From Flavobacteriales bacterium UBA6770 (lineage in GTDB: Bacteria > Bacteroidota > Bacteroidia > Flavobacteriales_G > Salibacteraceae): a DNA stretch of 64,000 nt. This document shows, one piece after another, positions 1,189-62,073 of the stretch. The position numbers and the translations under genes were made by a program. A model generated the notes under the pieces. The model was not told where the DNA came from. It saw only the letters and a program-made list of their open reading frames with translations, and did not search any database. Location of the stretch: positions 62,001-126,000 of the forward strand of contig CAJIZH010000002.1 of NCBI GenBank assembly GCA_905181875.1. Reading direction: 5' to 3'. Every line of letters begins with the position of its first letter. The stretch's first letter is position 1.

Positions 1189-1719
1189 ATGAAATACTTT
1201 ATTTGTACTATGATATTATCTTCCTCAATGAGCCTAGCAGTAATTTTTGATTTCAACAAAAAATCCAACGTTGAAGATTGGGTAATTGTAGACGATGGAG
1301 TGATGGGTGGAAGGTCAAAAGGCAACTTTAAGTTAAGTAAAGATGGTTTTGGTGTTTTTGAAGGAAAAATCTCATTAGAAAATAACGGCGGATTCTCATC
1401 GCTGCGCTATAAATTCCCAAAAATTGAAACTAAGGAATACTCTAAAGTGGTTCTTAAACTTAAAGGTGATGGCAAACAATATCAGTTTAGAGTAAAAACT
1501 AATTCCGGAGATTACTATTCTTATATAACAACCTTTTCCACCTCTGGAAAATGGCAAGAAATAGAAATTCCGTTAAAAGATATGTACCCTGGTTATAGAG
1601 GGCGAAAGTTGGATCAACCGAACTTTTCTGGTGATTACATAGAAGAAATCATGTTTCTGATTGGAAACAAAAAAGAGGAAAACTTTAAATTATTATTAGA
1701 CAACTTAGAATTGAAGTAA
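1189..1719 (+). CDS. CIA30-family (NADH:ubiquinone oxidoreductase intermediate-associated protein 30-like) protein
   Basis: FDFNKKSNVEDWVIVDDGVMGGRSKGNF...GFSSLRYKF motif pattern; N-terminal signal-like segment. Confidence 0.85.
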   Translation: MKYFICTMILSSSMSLAVIFDFNKKSNVEDWVIVDDGVMGGRSKGNFKLSKDGFGVFEGKISLENNGGFSSLRYKFPKIETKEYSKVVLKLKGDGKQYQFRVKTNSGDYYSYITTFSTSGKWQEIEIPLKDMYPGYRGRKLDQPNFSGDYIEEIMFLIGNKKEENFKLLLDNLELK

Positions 1720-1888: not shown

Positions 1889-2167
1889 ATGATGGAATTT
1901 TCAGAAAGAGATCACGATCGAATTATTGAGATGGCCTGGGAAGATCGCACTCCTTTCGAAGCAATTGATTTTCAATTTGGATTAAAAGAAAACGAGATTA
2001 TCCAAGTAATGCGCAGCACGCTAAAACCAAAATCATTTCGGTTATGGAGAAAAAGAGTGAACAGCGGAATAAGCAGTAAACATCTAAAAAAGCGCAGTGC
2101 TGAAATGACTCGATTCAAATGTTCACGTCAGCGCGGTATTTCGAACAATAAAATTACCAAGCGATGA
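1889..2167 (+). CDS. TIGR03643/DUF2805 family protein
   Basis: FSERDHDRIIEMAWEDRTPFEAIDFQFGLKENEIIQVMR...LKPKSFRLWRKRV signature; 4-bp overlap with the next CDS. Confidence 0.85.
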   Translation: MMEFSERDHDRIIEMAWEDRTPFEAIDFQFGLKENEIIQVMRSTLKPKSFRLWRKRVNSGISSKHLKKRSAEMTRFKCSRQRGISNNKITKR

Positions 2168-3252
2168 ATTTTCCTGCAGATTTAAAATCAATCCAAGAGC
2201 GCGTTCTAGCTATCAACCCAAAAAAATACGGAGCATCTAGAAACCATAAATCTGGATCAGTAACTCGATTAAGTCCTTACATAGCAAGAGGAGTGATTTC
2301 CACTAGAATGGTATTCCAACATATTCTTGATTTGGACCTCCCCTATTTTCATTCAGTAAAATTGATTCAAGAATTAGCCTGGCGAGACTATTGGCAGCAA
2401 GTGTGGATTGTAAAAGGAAATGCAATCGATAGCGATTTAAAACACGAACAATCCGCAGTATCAAATCATGCAGTTCCAACTGCACTGATTCAAGCAAGAA
2501 CAGGAATCGAGGCTATAGACATAGCAACTCAAGAACTATACAACACTGGCTACATGCACAACCACATGCGCATGTATATAGCTTCTATTACTTGTAATAT
2601 TAGTCATTCGCATTGGTTTCAACCTGCCCAATGGATGTATGCCAATTTGTTAGACGGAGATTGGGCCAGTAATGCCTTAAGCTGGCAATGGGTTGCAGGT
2701 GCAAATGCTAACAAGAAATATTATGCCAATCAAGAAAACATAAACAACTTCTTTGAAAGCGATCAATCCGACACCTTTTTAGACGTTAGCTACGAACAAT
2801 TTGAAACGATGGAAACGCCACCTATACTTAAGGTAACAGAAAACTTCGAGTTAAAAACTGAGCTTCCAACAAACAAGAATTTAGTGCTAAATGCTCAACT
2901 GCCAACCTGTGTCTACAGCTACTATAATCTTGACCCTAAATGGAGACAAGACAAAACAGCTAACCGTGTTTTGATATTGGAACCTAGCTTTTTCACTAAA
3001 TATCCAGTTGCTCAAAAACCACTTGATTTTGCGCTTTCATTGTCTGAAAATATTGAAGGTATTCAAGTTTTTGTGGGTGAATTCGATGAGCTTCAGAAAT
3101 TAGCAGGAACATCAACCATGATTTTTAAAGAGCATCCTACTAATCTCCATTTTAAAGGAACTCAAGACGAACGAGATTGGATGTTTTCTGTCAAAGGATT
3201 CTTTCCTTCTTTTTTCGCCTTTTGGAAAAAGTGCAATAAAGAGCTCAAGTAA
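2164..3252 (+). CDS. Photolyase/cryptochrome-like FAD-binding domain protein lacking the N-terminal antenna domain
   Basis: TRLSPYIARGVIS, QELAWRDYWQQVW, LYNTGYMHNHMRMYIASI and DGDWASNALSWQWVAGANANKKYYA match photolyase FAD-domain motifs. The protein begins at this domain. Confidence 0.85.
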   Translation: MNFPADLKSIQERVLAINPKKYGASRNHKSGSVTRLSPYIARGVISTRMVFQHILDLDLPYFHSVKLIQELAWRDYWQQVWIVKGNAIDSDLKHEQSAVSNHAVPTALIQARTGIEAIDIATQELYNTGYMHNHMRMYIASITCNISHSHWFQPAQWMYANLLDGDWASNALSWQWVAGANANKKYYANQENINNFFESDQSDTFLDVSYEQFETMETPPILKVTENFELKTELPTNKNLVLNAQLPTCVYSYYNLDPKWRQDKTANRVLILEPSFFTKYPVAQKPLDFALSLSENIEGIQVFVGEFDELQKLAGTSTMIFKEHPTNLHFKGTQDERDWMFSVKGFFPSFFAFWKKCNKELK

Positions 3253-3617
3253 TTACAAAAATGAAATTGGGTTTTTTATAATCGTATCGATTGAGTAACT
3301 GACTTATTCTTATGAATAATTGAAAGTTCAACTTTGTTGATTAAAAATTCAGAAATGGAAATCCTGATTTTATAATTAATCCTCGGTTTCCCAATGCATG
3401 AGAACTAGCGGCAGCATAATAATGAATAAAGGATAAAATGCTATTTTCAATAAAGACTGTGGGCACTATTATTGGATTTGCTTAAACGCTTATTTTCAAT
3501 TCAAAACTCACCTAAAAATTGATACAAATTAAATATAAAATGAATCACAAGTTAAATCGTTGAAACGTATTTATTTTCGTTAAATTGCATTTTTTAAGAT
3601 ATGTAAATACTTTGTCT

Positions 3618-5957
3618 ATGAACCAACCTTTTGACGAGAAACGTCTTGAAGACCTAAATCAATTGCAACTTCTAGACTCTCTTCCCGAAAAAGAATACGA
3701 CAATATAACCAGTCTAGCCGCTCTAATATGTGACACTCCTATCTCTTTAGTTTCTCTTGTTTCTGACAAACGGCAGTTCTTCAAATCAAATCATGGATTA
3801 GATATCAACGAGACGCCAATCGAGCAGTCGTTTTGTACCCATGCTATTAACAATCCTCTGCAGTATTTTATTGTAGAAGATGCACGAGAGGATGATCGCT
3901 TCAAGAACAATCCACTCGTTACTGGAAACCCTGAAATTGTTTTTTATACAGGAATACCTTTAGTAAGTAATGAGGGTAATGCTTTAGGCACACTTTGCGT
4001 AATCGATACTAAACCCCGAAAGCTCGAGCCAAAACAATTGAAAGCTTTAAAATCACTGGCTTATCAGGTATTGCAGTTTTTTAAACATCGTAAGGAGCAC
4101 TTTGGTCTTAAAAAAATGACAGAGAACTTCACAATTAAATCACAGTACTTAAATAATATTATTGATGCAGCTGGAATTAATGTCGACATTACCCAAATCA
4201 GAAATACTGAAGCTCAATTTAAAACCATTACCAATAATATTCCCGGTGTAGTTTTTCGCTACAAGCTTCGCCCAGATGGCAGCGACGATTTGCTATTGGT
4301 AAGCGAAGGAGCTGTAAATCTTTGGGGTTTCTCTGCTGAAGAAGTCATGAAAAATAGCCAGCTTATTTGGGAGAATATTGAAGAAGAAGATATAGAAGTA
4401 CTCGTACAATCCATTCAGAAATCGGCGCAAGAACTTAGCTTTTGGGAGCACGTATGGCGCCATCGCCATACCGACGGTGCCATCCGTTGGTGCAGGGGTG
4501 CTGGAAATCCAATACGCGCAGAAGACGGGAGTACTATTTGGGACACGATTATTCTAGATATTACCATTGAAAAAGAAAACGAGTTGGAAGTTGAGCAAAG
4601 TGAAAGAAGATTTAAAGGCCTTGTTCAAAATGGATCTGATTTAATTACAATTATGGACTATGAAGGCAACAACAAATACATAAGCCCTTCTTCCACAAAA
4701 ATTTTAGGAATTAATCCGAAGGAATTAATCCCTAAAAATAACTTTGATATTATTCATCCAAATGATAAAAAAGCGGTTACTAAAAGTCTCCTAAAATTAA
4801 AAACTAAAAAACAGCTCACGCTTAAACCTTACAGAATTAAACATGGTAATGGATCTTGGCGCTGGCTAGAAAGCGATTTAACTGACCTTATGAATGATTC
4901 AGCTATAGTTGGAATAGTAGCAAACTCTAGAGATATAACAACGCGAGTCCTTATCGAAAAGAAACTAAAAAAGAGTAAATCATATTACAAAGGTTTATCC
5001 GAATCACAAACCAACTTTGTTATTCGAACTGATATAAATTTGATTTTCACCTATGTAAACAAAAAATTTATTAACGAATTTGGTTGGCTTTACCCTGATG
5101 GGAAAATATTAGGGAACAACTATTTTTCATCAATTTCGGAATACCATCATAAAAGAACAAAAGAAATAGTAGAAAAATGTATTGCAGAACCTAAAAAGGT
5201 GTTTAAAATTGAAATCAACAAACCAACCAGCGATGGAAAAACTCGCACTACTCTTTGGGACTTTGTATGTATTACAGATGCTCAAGGAAAACCTTCTGAA
5301 ATACAATGTATAGGGATGGACATATCAAAACGTATTAAATCCGAAAACGCTCTTAAAGAATCAGAACACCGCTATTCTGATCTATTTAACCTTAGCCCAC
5401 AGCCTCAGTATATTTTCGAAATAGCTACTTTAAAGTTTCTGGATGTTAATAAAGCTGCAATTGAGCGCTACGGATATTCTTACAAGGAATTCCTGAATAT
5501 GACATTAAGAGGAATAAGACCAAAATCTGAATACTCAAAATTAGATGAGGCTCTAAAATTTCCGGCACAAAAGGGAGCACGCCACTTCTTTGGCGAACAT
5601 GTGCATAAAAATAAAAACGGAAAAGAAATCATTGTCGATCTTCGAGCTCATAATATATTATACAAAGGAAAAGAGGCTAAAGTCGTATTAGTAACAGACA
5701 TTACGGAACGCTATAAGCATATAAAGGCCATTGAAGCTCAAAACGAAAAACTAAAACAAATTGCATGGACCCAATCGCATGAAGTGCGAGCACCATTAAC
5801 AAACATAATGGGATTGATAGATGTATTGAGTTCCGTGACCTTATCAGCTGATGAAAAAGAAGAGTTTTCAAAGCACCTAATGGCCTCAGCAAATGAATTG
5901 GATAGCGTTATTAAAAATATCGTTAAAACCACAGAACAAGTGTTGGTTACAAAATAA
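3618..5957 (+). CDS. GAF + multi-PAS sensor protein ending in a HisKA-like H-box, no HATPase_c domain
   Basis: N-terminal GAF (ITSLAALICDTPISLVSLVSDKRQFFKSNHGL); several PAS/PAC units; terminal QSHEVRAPLTNIMGLIDVL followed by only ~50 aa. Start placed at the internal Met of the 3585 ORF. Confidence 0.8.
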   Translation: MNQPFDEKRLEDLNQLQLLDSLPEKEYDNITSLAALICDTPISLVSLVSDKRQFFKSNHGLDINETPIEQSFCTHAINNPLQYFIVEDAREDDRFKNNPLVTGNPEIVFYTGIPLVSNEGNALGTLCVIDTKPRKLEPKQLKALKSLAYQVLQFFKHRKEHFGLKKMTENFTIKSQYLNNIIDAAGINVDITQIRNTEAQFKTITNNIPGVVFRYKLRPDGSDDLLLVSEGAVNLWGFSAEEVMKNSQLIWENIEEEDIEVLVQSIQKSAQELSFWEHVWRHRHTDGAIRWCRGAGNPIRAEDGSTIWDTIILDITIEKENELEVEQSERRFKGLVQNGSDLITIMDYEGNNKYISPSSTKILGINPKELIPKNNFDIIHPNDKKAVTKSLLKLKTKKQLTLKPYRIKHGNGSWRWLESDLTDLMNDSAIVGIVANSRDITTRVLIEKKLKKSKSYYKGLSESQTNFVIRTDINLIFTYVNKKFINEFGWLYPDGKILGNNYFSSISEYHHKRTKEIVEKCIAEPKKVFKIEINKPTSDGKTRTTLWDFVCITDAQGKPSEIQCIGMDISKRIKSENALKESEHRYSDLFNLSPQPQYIFEIATLKFLDVNKAAIERYGYSYKEFLNMTLRGIRPKSEYSKLDEALKFPAQKGARHFFGEHVHKNKNGKEIIVDLRAHNILYKGKEAKVVLVTDITERYKHIKAIEAQNEKLKQIAWTQSHEVRAPLTNIMGLIDVLSSVTLSADEKEEFSKHLMASANELDSVIKNIVKTTEQVLVTK

Positions 5958-61973: not shown

Positions 61974-62073
61974 CTATTTATAATTTTGTTATTTAACTTA
62001 TTGGTTGGCGAAGGTATAATTATAAAAAGGATAATTAATGTATGTACATCTATATTTTACGACTTTTTAATGC

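Follow-up and report, generated by a model that had tools for sequence, protein, structure and literature searches.

A gene of Flavobacteriales bacterium UBA6770 encodes a photolyase-family protein of 362 amino acids in which the FAD domain comes first and an antenna-type domain comes last (Table 1). It lies in the 64,000-nucleotide stretch analysed here (the window), forward positions 62,001–126,000 of contig CAJIZH010000002.1 (C2) in assembly GCA_905181875.1. The inverted order is real, and such a layout is already published for the NewPHL/SPL proteins and the picocyanobacterial Phr4–7. Judged from its sequence, the protein is probably a FAD-first photolyase of cyclobutane pyrimidine dimers (CPDs) in a Bacteroidota clade of the NewPHL/SPL type, most likely replacing the DASH enzyme.

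Table 1. Positions of the genes and protein features in the window
Feature	Position	Strand	Basis
CIA30 protein gene, recurrent neighbour	1189..1719	+	Pfam; 8 loci of 80
TIGR03643/DUF2805 gene, 92 aa	1889..2167	+	ORF, profile match; 4-base overlap with photolyase start (ATGA)
FAD-first photolyase-family gene, 362 aa, ATG start	2164..3252	+	ORF; Pfam FAD_binding_7; 80 full-length relatives
N-terminal all-helical FAD/catalytic domain, residues ~1–200	2164..2763	+	Foldseek PDB; AlphaFold2 helices
QELAWRDYWQQVW, residues 69–81, equivalents of S. elongatus E283, W286, R287	2368..2406	+	E70, W73, R74 in 88/88
TGYMHNHMRM, residues 128–137, N349 and M353 equivalents kept	2545..2574	+	Family alignment
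DGDWASNALSWQW, residues 164–176, equivalents of D380, D382, N386, W390, W392	2653..2691	+	All 88/88
ANKKYYANQENINNFF region, residues 181–196, FAD-first signature replacing PYFRIFNP	2704..2751	+	Family alignment
Putative trimmed antenna-type alpha/beta domain, residues 241–362	2884..3249	+	AlphaFold2; profile match to Deinococcus; collinearity

Domain order and the C-terminal domain

An earlier note, made from the letters of the DNA, had read the protein as a FAD domain followed by a Rossmann-like one with no antenna domain in front, and Pfam and AlphaFold2 bear this order out. FAD_binding_7 is the sole Pfam match (residues 68–191, E 4.5e-23). The PDB sequence matches span residues 9–196 at most, and their target is always the C-terminal half of photolyases or cryptochromes. 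With the whole AlphaFold2 model, the top Foldseek matches in the PDB are again photolyases and cryptochromes over roughly 184–232 columns, the best being a Thermus enzyme (E 9.9e-8, 228 columns). The antenna domain PF00875 is absent from the window, and its two matches in a whole-genome profile search are on contigs C1 and C6. None occurs in any frame 5′ of the gene, where the ORFs encode TIGR03643/DUF2805, CIA30 and an SDR-like/DUF2867 protein.

At least 242 loci encode relatives in a GTDB genome scan. The best 80 of the 242 were fetched and are nearly all from Bacteroidota; the few labelled as other phyla are mostly metagenome bins, perhaps misbinned. The architecture is not a chance one, since all 80 have it at full length, with 54–82% identity. 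That a normal photolyase gene was recently rearranged or truncated in the UBA6770 genome is scarcely credible against this sharing and the monophyly of the clade, and nothing but the unusual layout speaks for it. The idea of a circularly permuted or re-assembled protein thus holds loosely, in that the order of two domains is inverted, but not as a recent cut-and-rejoin, as a large group shares the order.

Both halves of the protein are strongly kept, with a mean column identity of 64% in the family alignment. Profile search of 297 Bacteroidota genomes finds a family protein in 17 at E < 1e-100. After a gap comes one FAD-first relative of the Cys type (E 6e-45), and the matches below it are mostly ordinary photolyases (E > 1e-27). 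A 264-aa match in genome G273 was rejected as a FAD-first protein, being a split class I gene.

AlphaFold2 run on the single sequence gave a model of no use (pLDDT 32), and on 34 aligned family members it gave a pLDDT of 95.4 and a pTM of 0.92, with ten-residue block means of 80–98 in the C-terminal domain. This region is modelled as alpha/beta and not as a helical tail, with strands at 248–252, 267–272, 300–304, 319–322 and 333–335 and helices at 274–279, 284–294, 307–314 and 350–361. The order over residues 245–361 (~115 aa) is b-b-a-a-b-a-b-b-a, and that of the classical antenna domain is b1-a1-b2-a2-b3-a3-b4-a4-b5. The modelled order would fit the classical one if a1 and a4 were reduced to loops. 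The Rossmann-like character suggested earlier therefore stands, but a half-domain from about residue 265 does not: the start is nearer residue 245 (strand CVYSY), and so the model reads as a trimmed whole domain with a beta1-like strand present and two helices gone.

Taken alone, the C-terminal profile matches nothing relevant among the PDB sequences (best E 1.4, unrelated) and no consistent family in Pfam. Whole-chain Foldseek does not superpose this domain on the classical N-terminal one, the domain order differing. Its direct comparison with classical antenna domains is not significant, with 7/150 permutations as good, so homology to the antenna domain rests on a bridge through Deinococcus. 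On three Deinococcus plasmids, single chains of 456–472 aa have the FAD domain first and ...AVVWVHGDRLSPTNEAL...PAVFVWDD... last, and in a fourth Deinococcus and in genome G281 the two parts are adjacent ORFs. The separate Deinococcus second ORF matches PF00875 with E 2.3e-4 and 21.6 bits (curated cut-off 26.6), and the Deinococcus-group profile gives E 1.1e-4 against the antenna domains that the operon-partner photolyases carry.

The full-length profile of the UBA6770 family in turn aligns with that of the Deinococcus set collinearly through both domains (prob 100, E 7.9e-50, 366 columns; the two split cases entered as concatenated ORF products), and with six alphaproteobacterial NewPHL-like FAD-first proteins likewise (E 1e-38, 348 columns), the FAD domain contributing most to these scores. 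Between the C-terminal domains alone, the score against Deinococcus is 25.4 and the permutation maximum is 19.0 (0/150 as good). This bridge and the predicted topology, not a direct match, support homology of the C-terminal domain to the antenna domain.

In the two split cases, Deinococcus sp. QL22 (L086:3863-5154) and G281 (L107:947-2181), a FAD ORF with a Cys cluster is followed by an overlapping antenna ORF, which recalls the reported picocyanobacterial phr4/phr5. A search for further split antenna ORFs in the class of G281 turned up only G281 itself.

The active site and the predicted reaction

Residues below follow the numbering of the S. elongatus photolyase, mapped through the PDB sequence alignment, and its FAD contacts are those given in PMC9426592. 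Most are kept, namely Y228, L243, S244, R287, N349, D380, D382 and N386; the altered ones are S241 (Thr/Ser), A385 (Ser), T240 (Val) and W280 (Ile), and position 346 is Tyr. The FAD-domain motif TRLSPYIARGVIS is present at residues 34–46, as the earlier note had it. So is the replacement of PYFRIFNP: WQWVAG is followed by NKKYYANQENINNF, which at the columns examined is kept in 86–88 of the 88 proteins of the family, and the ANKKYYANQENINNFF region is collinear with the Deinococcus and alphaproteobacterial FAD-first proteins. Two further changes mark the FAD-first rows and occur in none of the class I and DASH rows: His for R350 (31/32), which other FAD-first groups have as well, and Val/Ile for T240 (32/32).

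The N5-proximal Asn, N170 (the N386 equivalent), is found in 88/88 family members. Equally invariant are the equivalents of E283, W286, N349, M353 and W392, which we take to be the dimer contacts in the class I complex. W174 and W151, the Trp dyad, are also invariant in the family. No distal Trp is found before TG in the 19 proteins of the clade and six alphaproteobacterial proteins scored, and at least one Trp is at the distal position in all 16 class I, DASH and other proteins scored. The Dinoroseobacter shibae NewPHL has merely a Trp dyad (PMC8948257), and the N5 Asn is kept in NewPHL (PMC12083526).

Light-driven CPD repair is most likely the job of the protein. The FAD would be housed in the N-terminal helical domain, where blue light would excite its reduced form to pass an electron to a dimer flipped into a pocket of E70, W73, N133, M137 and W176. 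Photoreduction would go through the dyad W174–W151, because the distal Trp is absent. The C-terminal domain, putatively a classical antenna relic minus two helices, most likely closes the FAD site like a lid instead of holding an antenna pigment.

The earlier note had favoured a light sensor or redox protein over a repair enzyme, and this part of it fares badly. A blue-light sensor of the cryptochrome type, or a redox flavoprotein, that has lost its repair activity would be in keeping with the replaced PYFRIFNP and with the missing distal Trp, but the latter is reported as missing also in one NewPHL, and the NewPHLs reportedly repair CPDs. Such a protein would also suit a PAS/GAF histidine-kinase-like gene downstream, yet this gene is absent from the recurrent neighbours in 80 loci, and the operon partners are photolyases with no signalling genes among them. 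Moreover, neither the dimer-contact residues nor the N5 Asn vary, most FAD contacts are kept, and the C-terminus is a folded alpha/beta domain with no signalling extension. The sensor role is therefore unlikely, and we consider the loss of repair improbable.

The downstream gene (window 3585-5957) is peculiar in itself. Its GAF and PAS sensor protein stops just past HisKA with no ATPase domain found, and either a frameshift or a shortened kinase is possible.

Place among the known inverted photolyases

A tree built on 197 columns and 57 rows of the FAD core has the UBA6770 family as one clade (100/99), and in it a single branch (100/100) parts all the FAD-first rows from all the class I, DASH and operon-partner photolyase rows. 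With FeS-BCP as the root, the FAD-first groups form a paraphyletic set at the base, and the UBA6770 family is a clade of its own. This rooting is given little weight, as the FeS-BCP branch is very long, with a warning of long-branch attraction, and the bootstrap not fully settled. The basal paraphyly agrees with the proposal that SPL-like proteins lie near the origin of the photolyase/cryptochrome family (PMC9649867).

Whether as a true member or as a functional counterpart, the protein goes with the inverted photolyases that the literature calls NewPHL (Emmerich et al. 2020, NAR 48:12845, as cited in PMC9426592, PMC13274461 and PMC8948257) or SPL, short photolyase-like (Xu et al. 2021, MBE 38:4505, as cited in PMC9178010 and PMC9649867). 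Hence the guess at a known but uncharacterised family was close to the mark: the family is known, thinly characterised and of inverted topology (PMC13274461, PMC9426592). The passage of PMC13274461 drawn on here summarises NewPHL/SPL proteins as repairers of CPDs in single-stranded DNA.

With NewPHL the clade shares the leading FAD domain, the small C-terminal domain, the Trp dyad and the N5 Asn. It differs in splitting from the alphaproteobacterial FAD-first proteins, our proxies for NewPHL, in a C-terminal domain of ~115 aa against ~150, and in its coupling to TIGR03643. With SPL it shares the lack of an N-terminal alpha/beta domain and a FAD domain close to class I/III. However, the Cys cluster after WQW, which the FAD-first proteins of Deinococcus and G281 have, is absent from the UBA6770 protein; in the citing papers, as far as they describe SPLs, the four Fe-S cysteines occur in only some members and are not strictly defining. 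The same descriptions give SPLs no alpha/beta domain, whereas the UBA6770 protein has an equivalent at the C-terminus.

Compared by description, the picocyanobacterial Phr4/Phr5, Phr6 and Phr7 are alike in their inverted order, Phr7 being a FAD domain plus a Z-domain, but Phr4/5/6 have Fe-S cysteines and belong to another phylum (PMC9426592). A distinct Bacteroidota branch of inverted photolyases is new here with respect to the literature compared, namely papers that cite the founding ones (Emmerich 2020, Xu 2021).

The operon and the probable exchange with DASH

Genes that recur near the FAD-first gene in the 80 loci encode a DPRP/FeS-BCP-type photolyase (53 loci), TIGR03643 (47), a further photolyase-like protein (36), flavin reductase (31), DUF2452 (19) and CIA30 (Table 1). 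The end of TIGR03643 is mostly no more than 4 bases from the FAD-first start, and the photolyase-like gene downstream usually has a 4-base overlap with the FAD-first stop. With such short overlaps at both gene ends, the TIGR03643, FAD-first and photolyase-like genes have the look of a single operon with translational coupling. In the genome of the window, the FeS-BCP and photolyase-like genes are together elsewhere, on C6.

Two of the genes deserve a remark of their own. In the second photolyase-like protein (L001:1393-2904 (-); 36 copies, e.g. L006:7098-8576), FDPGIHYPQFQMQAG replaces DGDxASNxxxWQW, so that the N5 Asn and both Trp are altered, and its tree branch is very long; it is possibly a cryptochrome-like or non-repair member. 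By its sequence, TIGR03643/DUF2805 resembles a small helix-turn-helix protein.

Of the 297 Bacteroidota genomes, 17 carry the FAD-first protein, 71 carry DASH and 210 have neither. TIGR03643 is present in 14/17, 55/71 and 8/210 of them, respectively, and is thus nearly confined to genomes with DASH or a FAD-first protein (68/76). Within these 76, DASH occurs in 1/14 carriers against 54/62 non-carriers (Fisher p 1.6e-8, which overstates independence because genomes share ancestry). By genus, DASH is found in a carrier genome of 1/12 carrier genera against 26/31 others. The single carrier that also has DASH is G080. When not conditioned on TIGR03643, the depletion is weak (1/17 carriers against 70/280, p 0.08).

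Stronger evidence for replacement than the co-occurrence statistics is the swap in the operon slot. A distance of at most 6 kb separates TIGR03643 from the FAD-first gene in 8/14 genomes and from DASH in 11/55. In three DASH genomes picked for a nearby TIGR03643, the gene orders are DASH/photolyase-like/TIGR03643 (L131), TIGR03643/photolyase-like/FeS-BCP/DASH (L132) and DASH/FeS-BCP/TIGR03643 (L133). DASH itself differs in having the antenna domain first and the distal Trp present and in forming a separate clade, and the UBA6770 protein reaches only 74 bits with the DASH model TIGR02765 (cut-off 317).

The swap suggests a preference of the UBA6770 protein for single-stranded DNA, and its cellular role would most likely be that of DASH, i.e. 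CPD repair in such DNA. Partners in this may be TIGR03643, the prokaryotic 6-4 type (FeS-BCP/DPRP) photolyase, the other photolyase-like protein and flavin reductase. Alternatively, the CPD repair of the protein may act chiefly on double-stranded DNA, as that of class I does, the exclusion of DASH being lineage history. This is rather unlikely, as the slot and the TIGR03643 partner are common to DASH in the genomes checked and the NewPHLs are single-strand CPD repairers according to the same passage of PMC13274461, although the M353 and W392 positions are nearer class I than DASH (Gln/Val and Tyr/Met there) and the class I gene of the genome itself is frameshifted in the assembly.

That class I CPD photolyase gene (C1 41254-41616; L002 ~1780-1880) breaks its frame just past WQWVAG and resumes with DAAPYFRVFNP in another frame, by assembly error or as a pseudogene.

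DASH replacement in single-strand repair, our preferred reading, can be extended. We put forward only tentatively that the clade is a third, Bacteroidota-centred inverted one with a stripped antenna relic, which replaces DASH one-for-one in a multi-photolyase operon and has, as DASH would, DUF2805 as a dedicated partner. No link of DUF2805/TIGR03643 to photolyases appears in the open literature searched. If the extension is true, DUF2805 would be an unrecognised factor of single-strand photorepair.

Inverted photolyases are proposed to be near the ancestral photolyase/cryptochrome form, and few members are tested. The Bacteroidota clade supplies many compact, clearly kept homologues of them. 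Its apparent interchange with DASH in a single operon context, next to TIGR03643/DUF2805, suggests the same job for both enzyme types and points to DUF2805 as their putative partner, which is directly testable.
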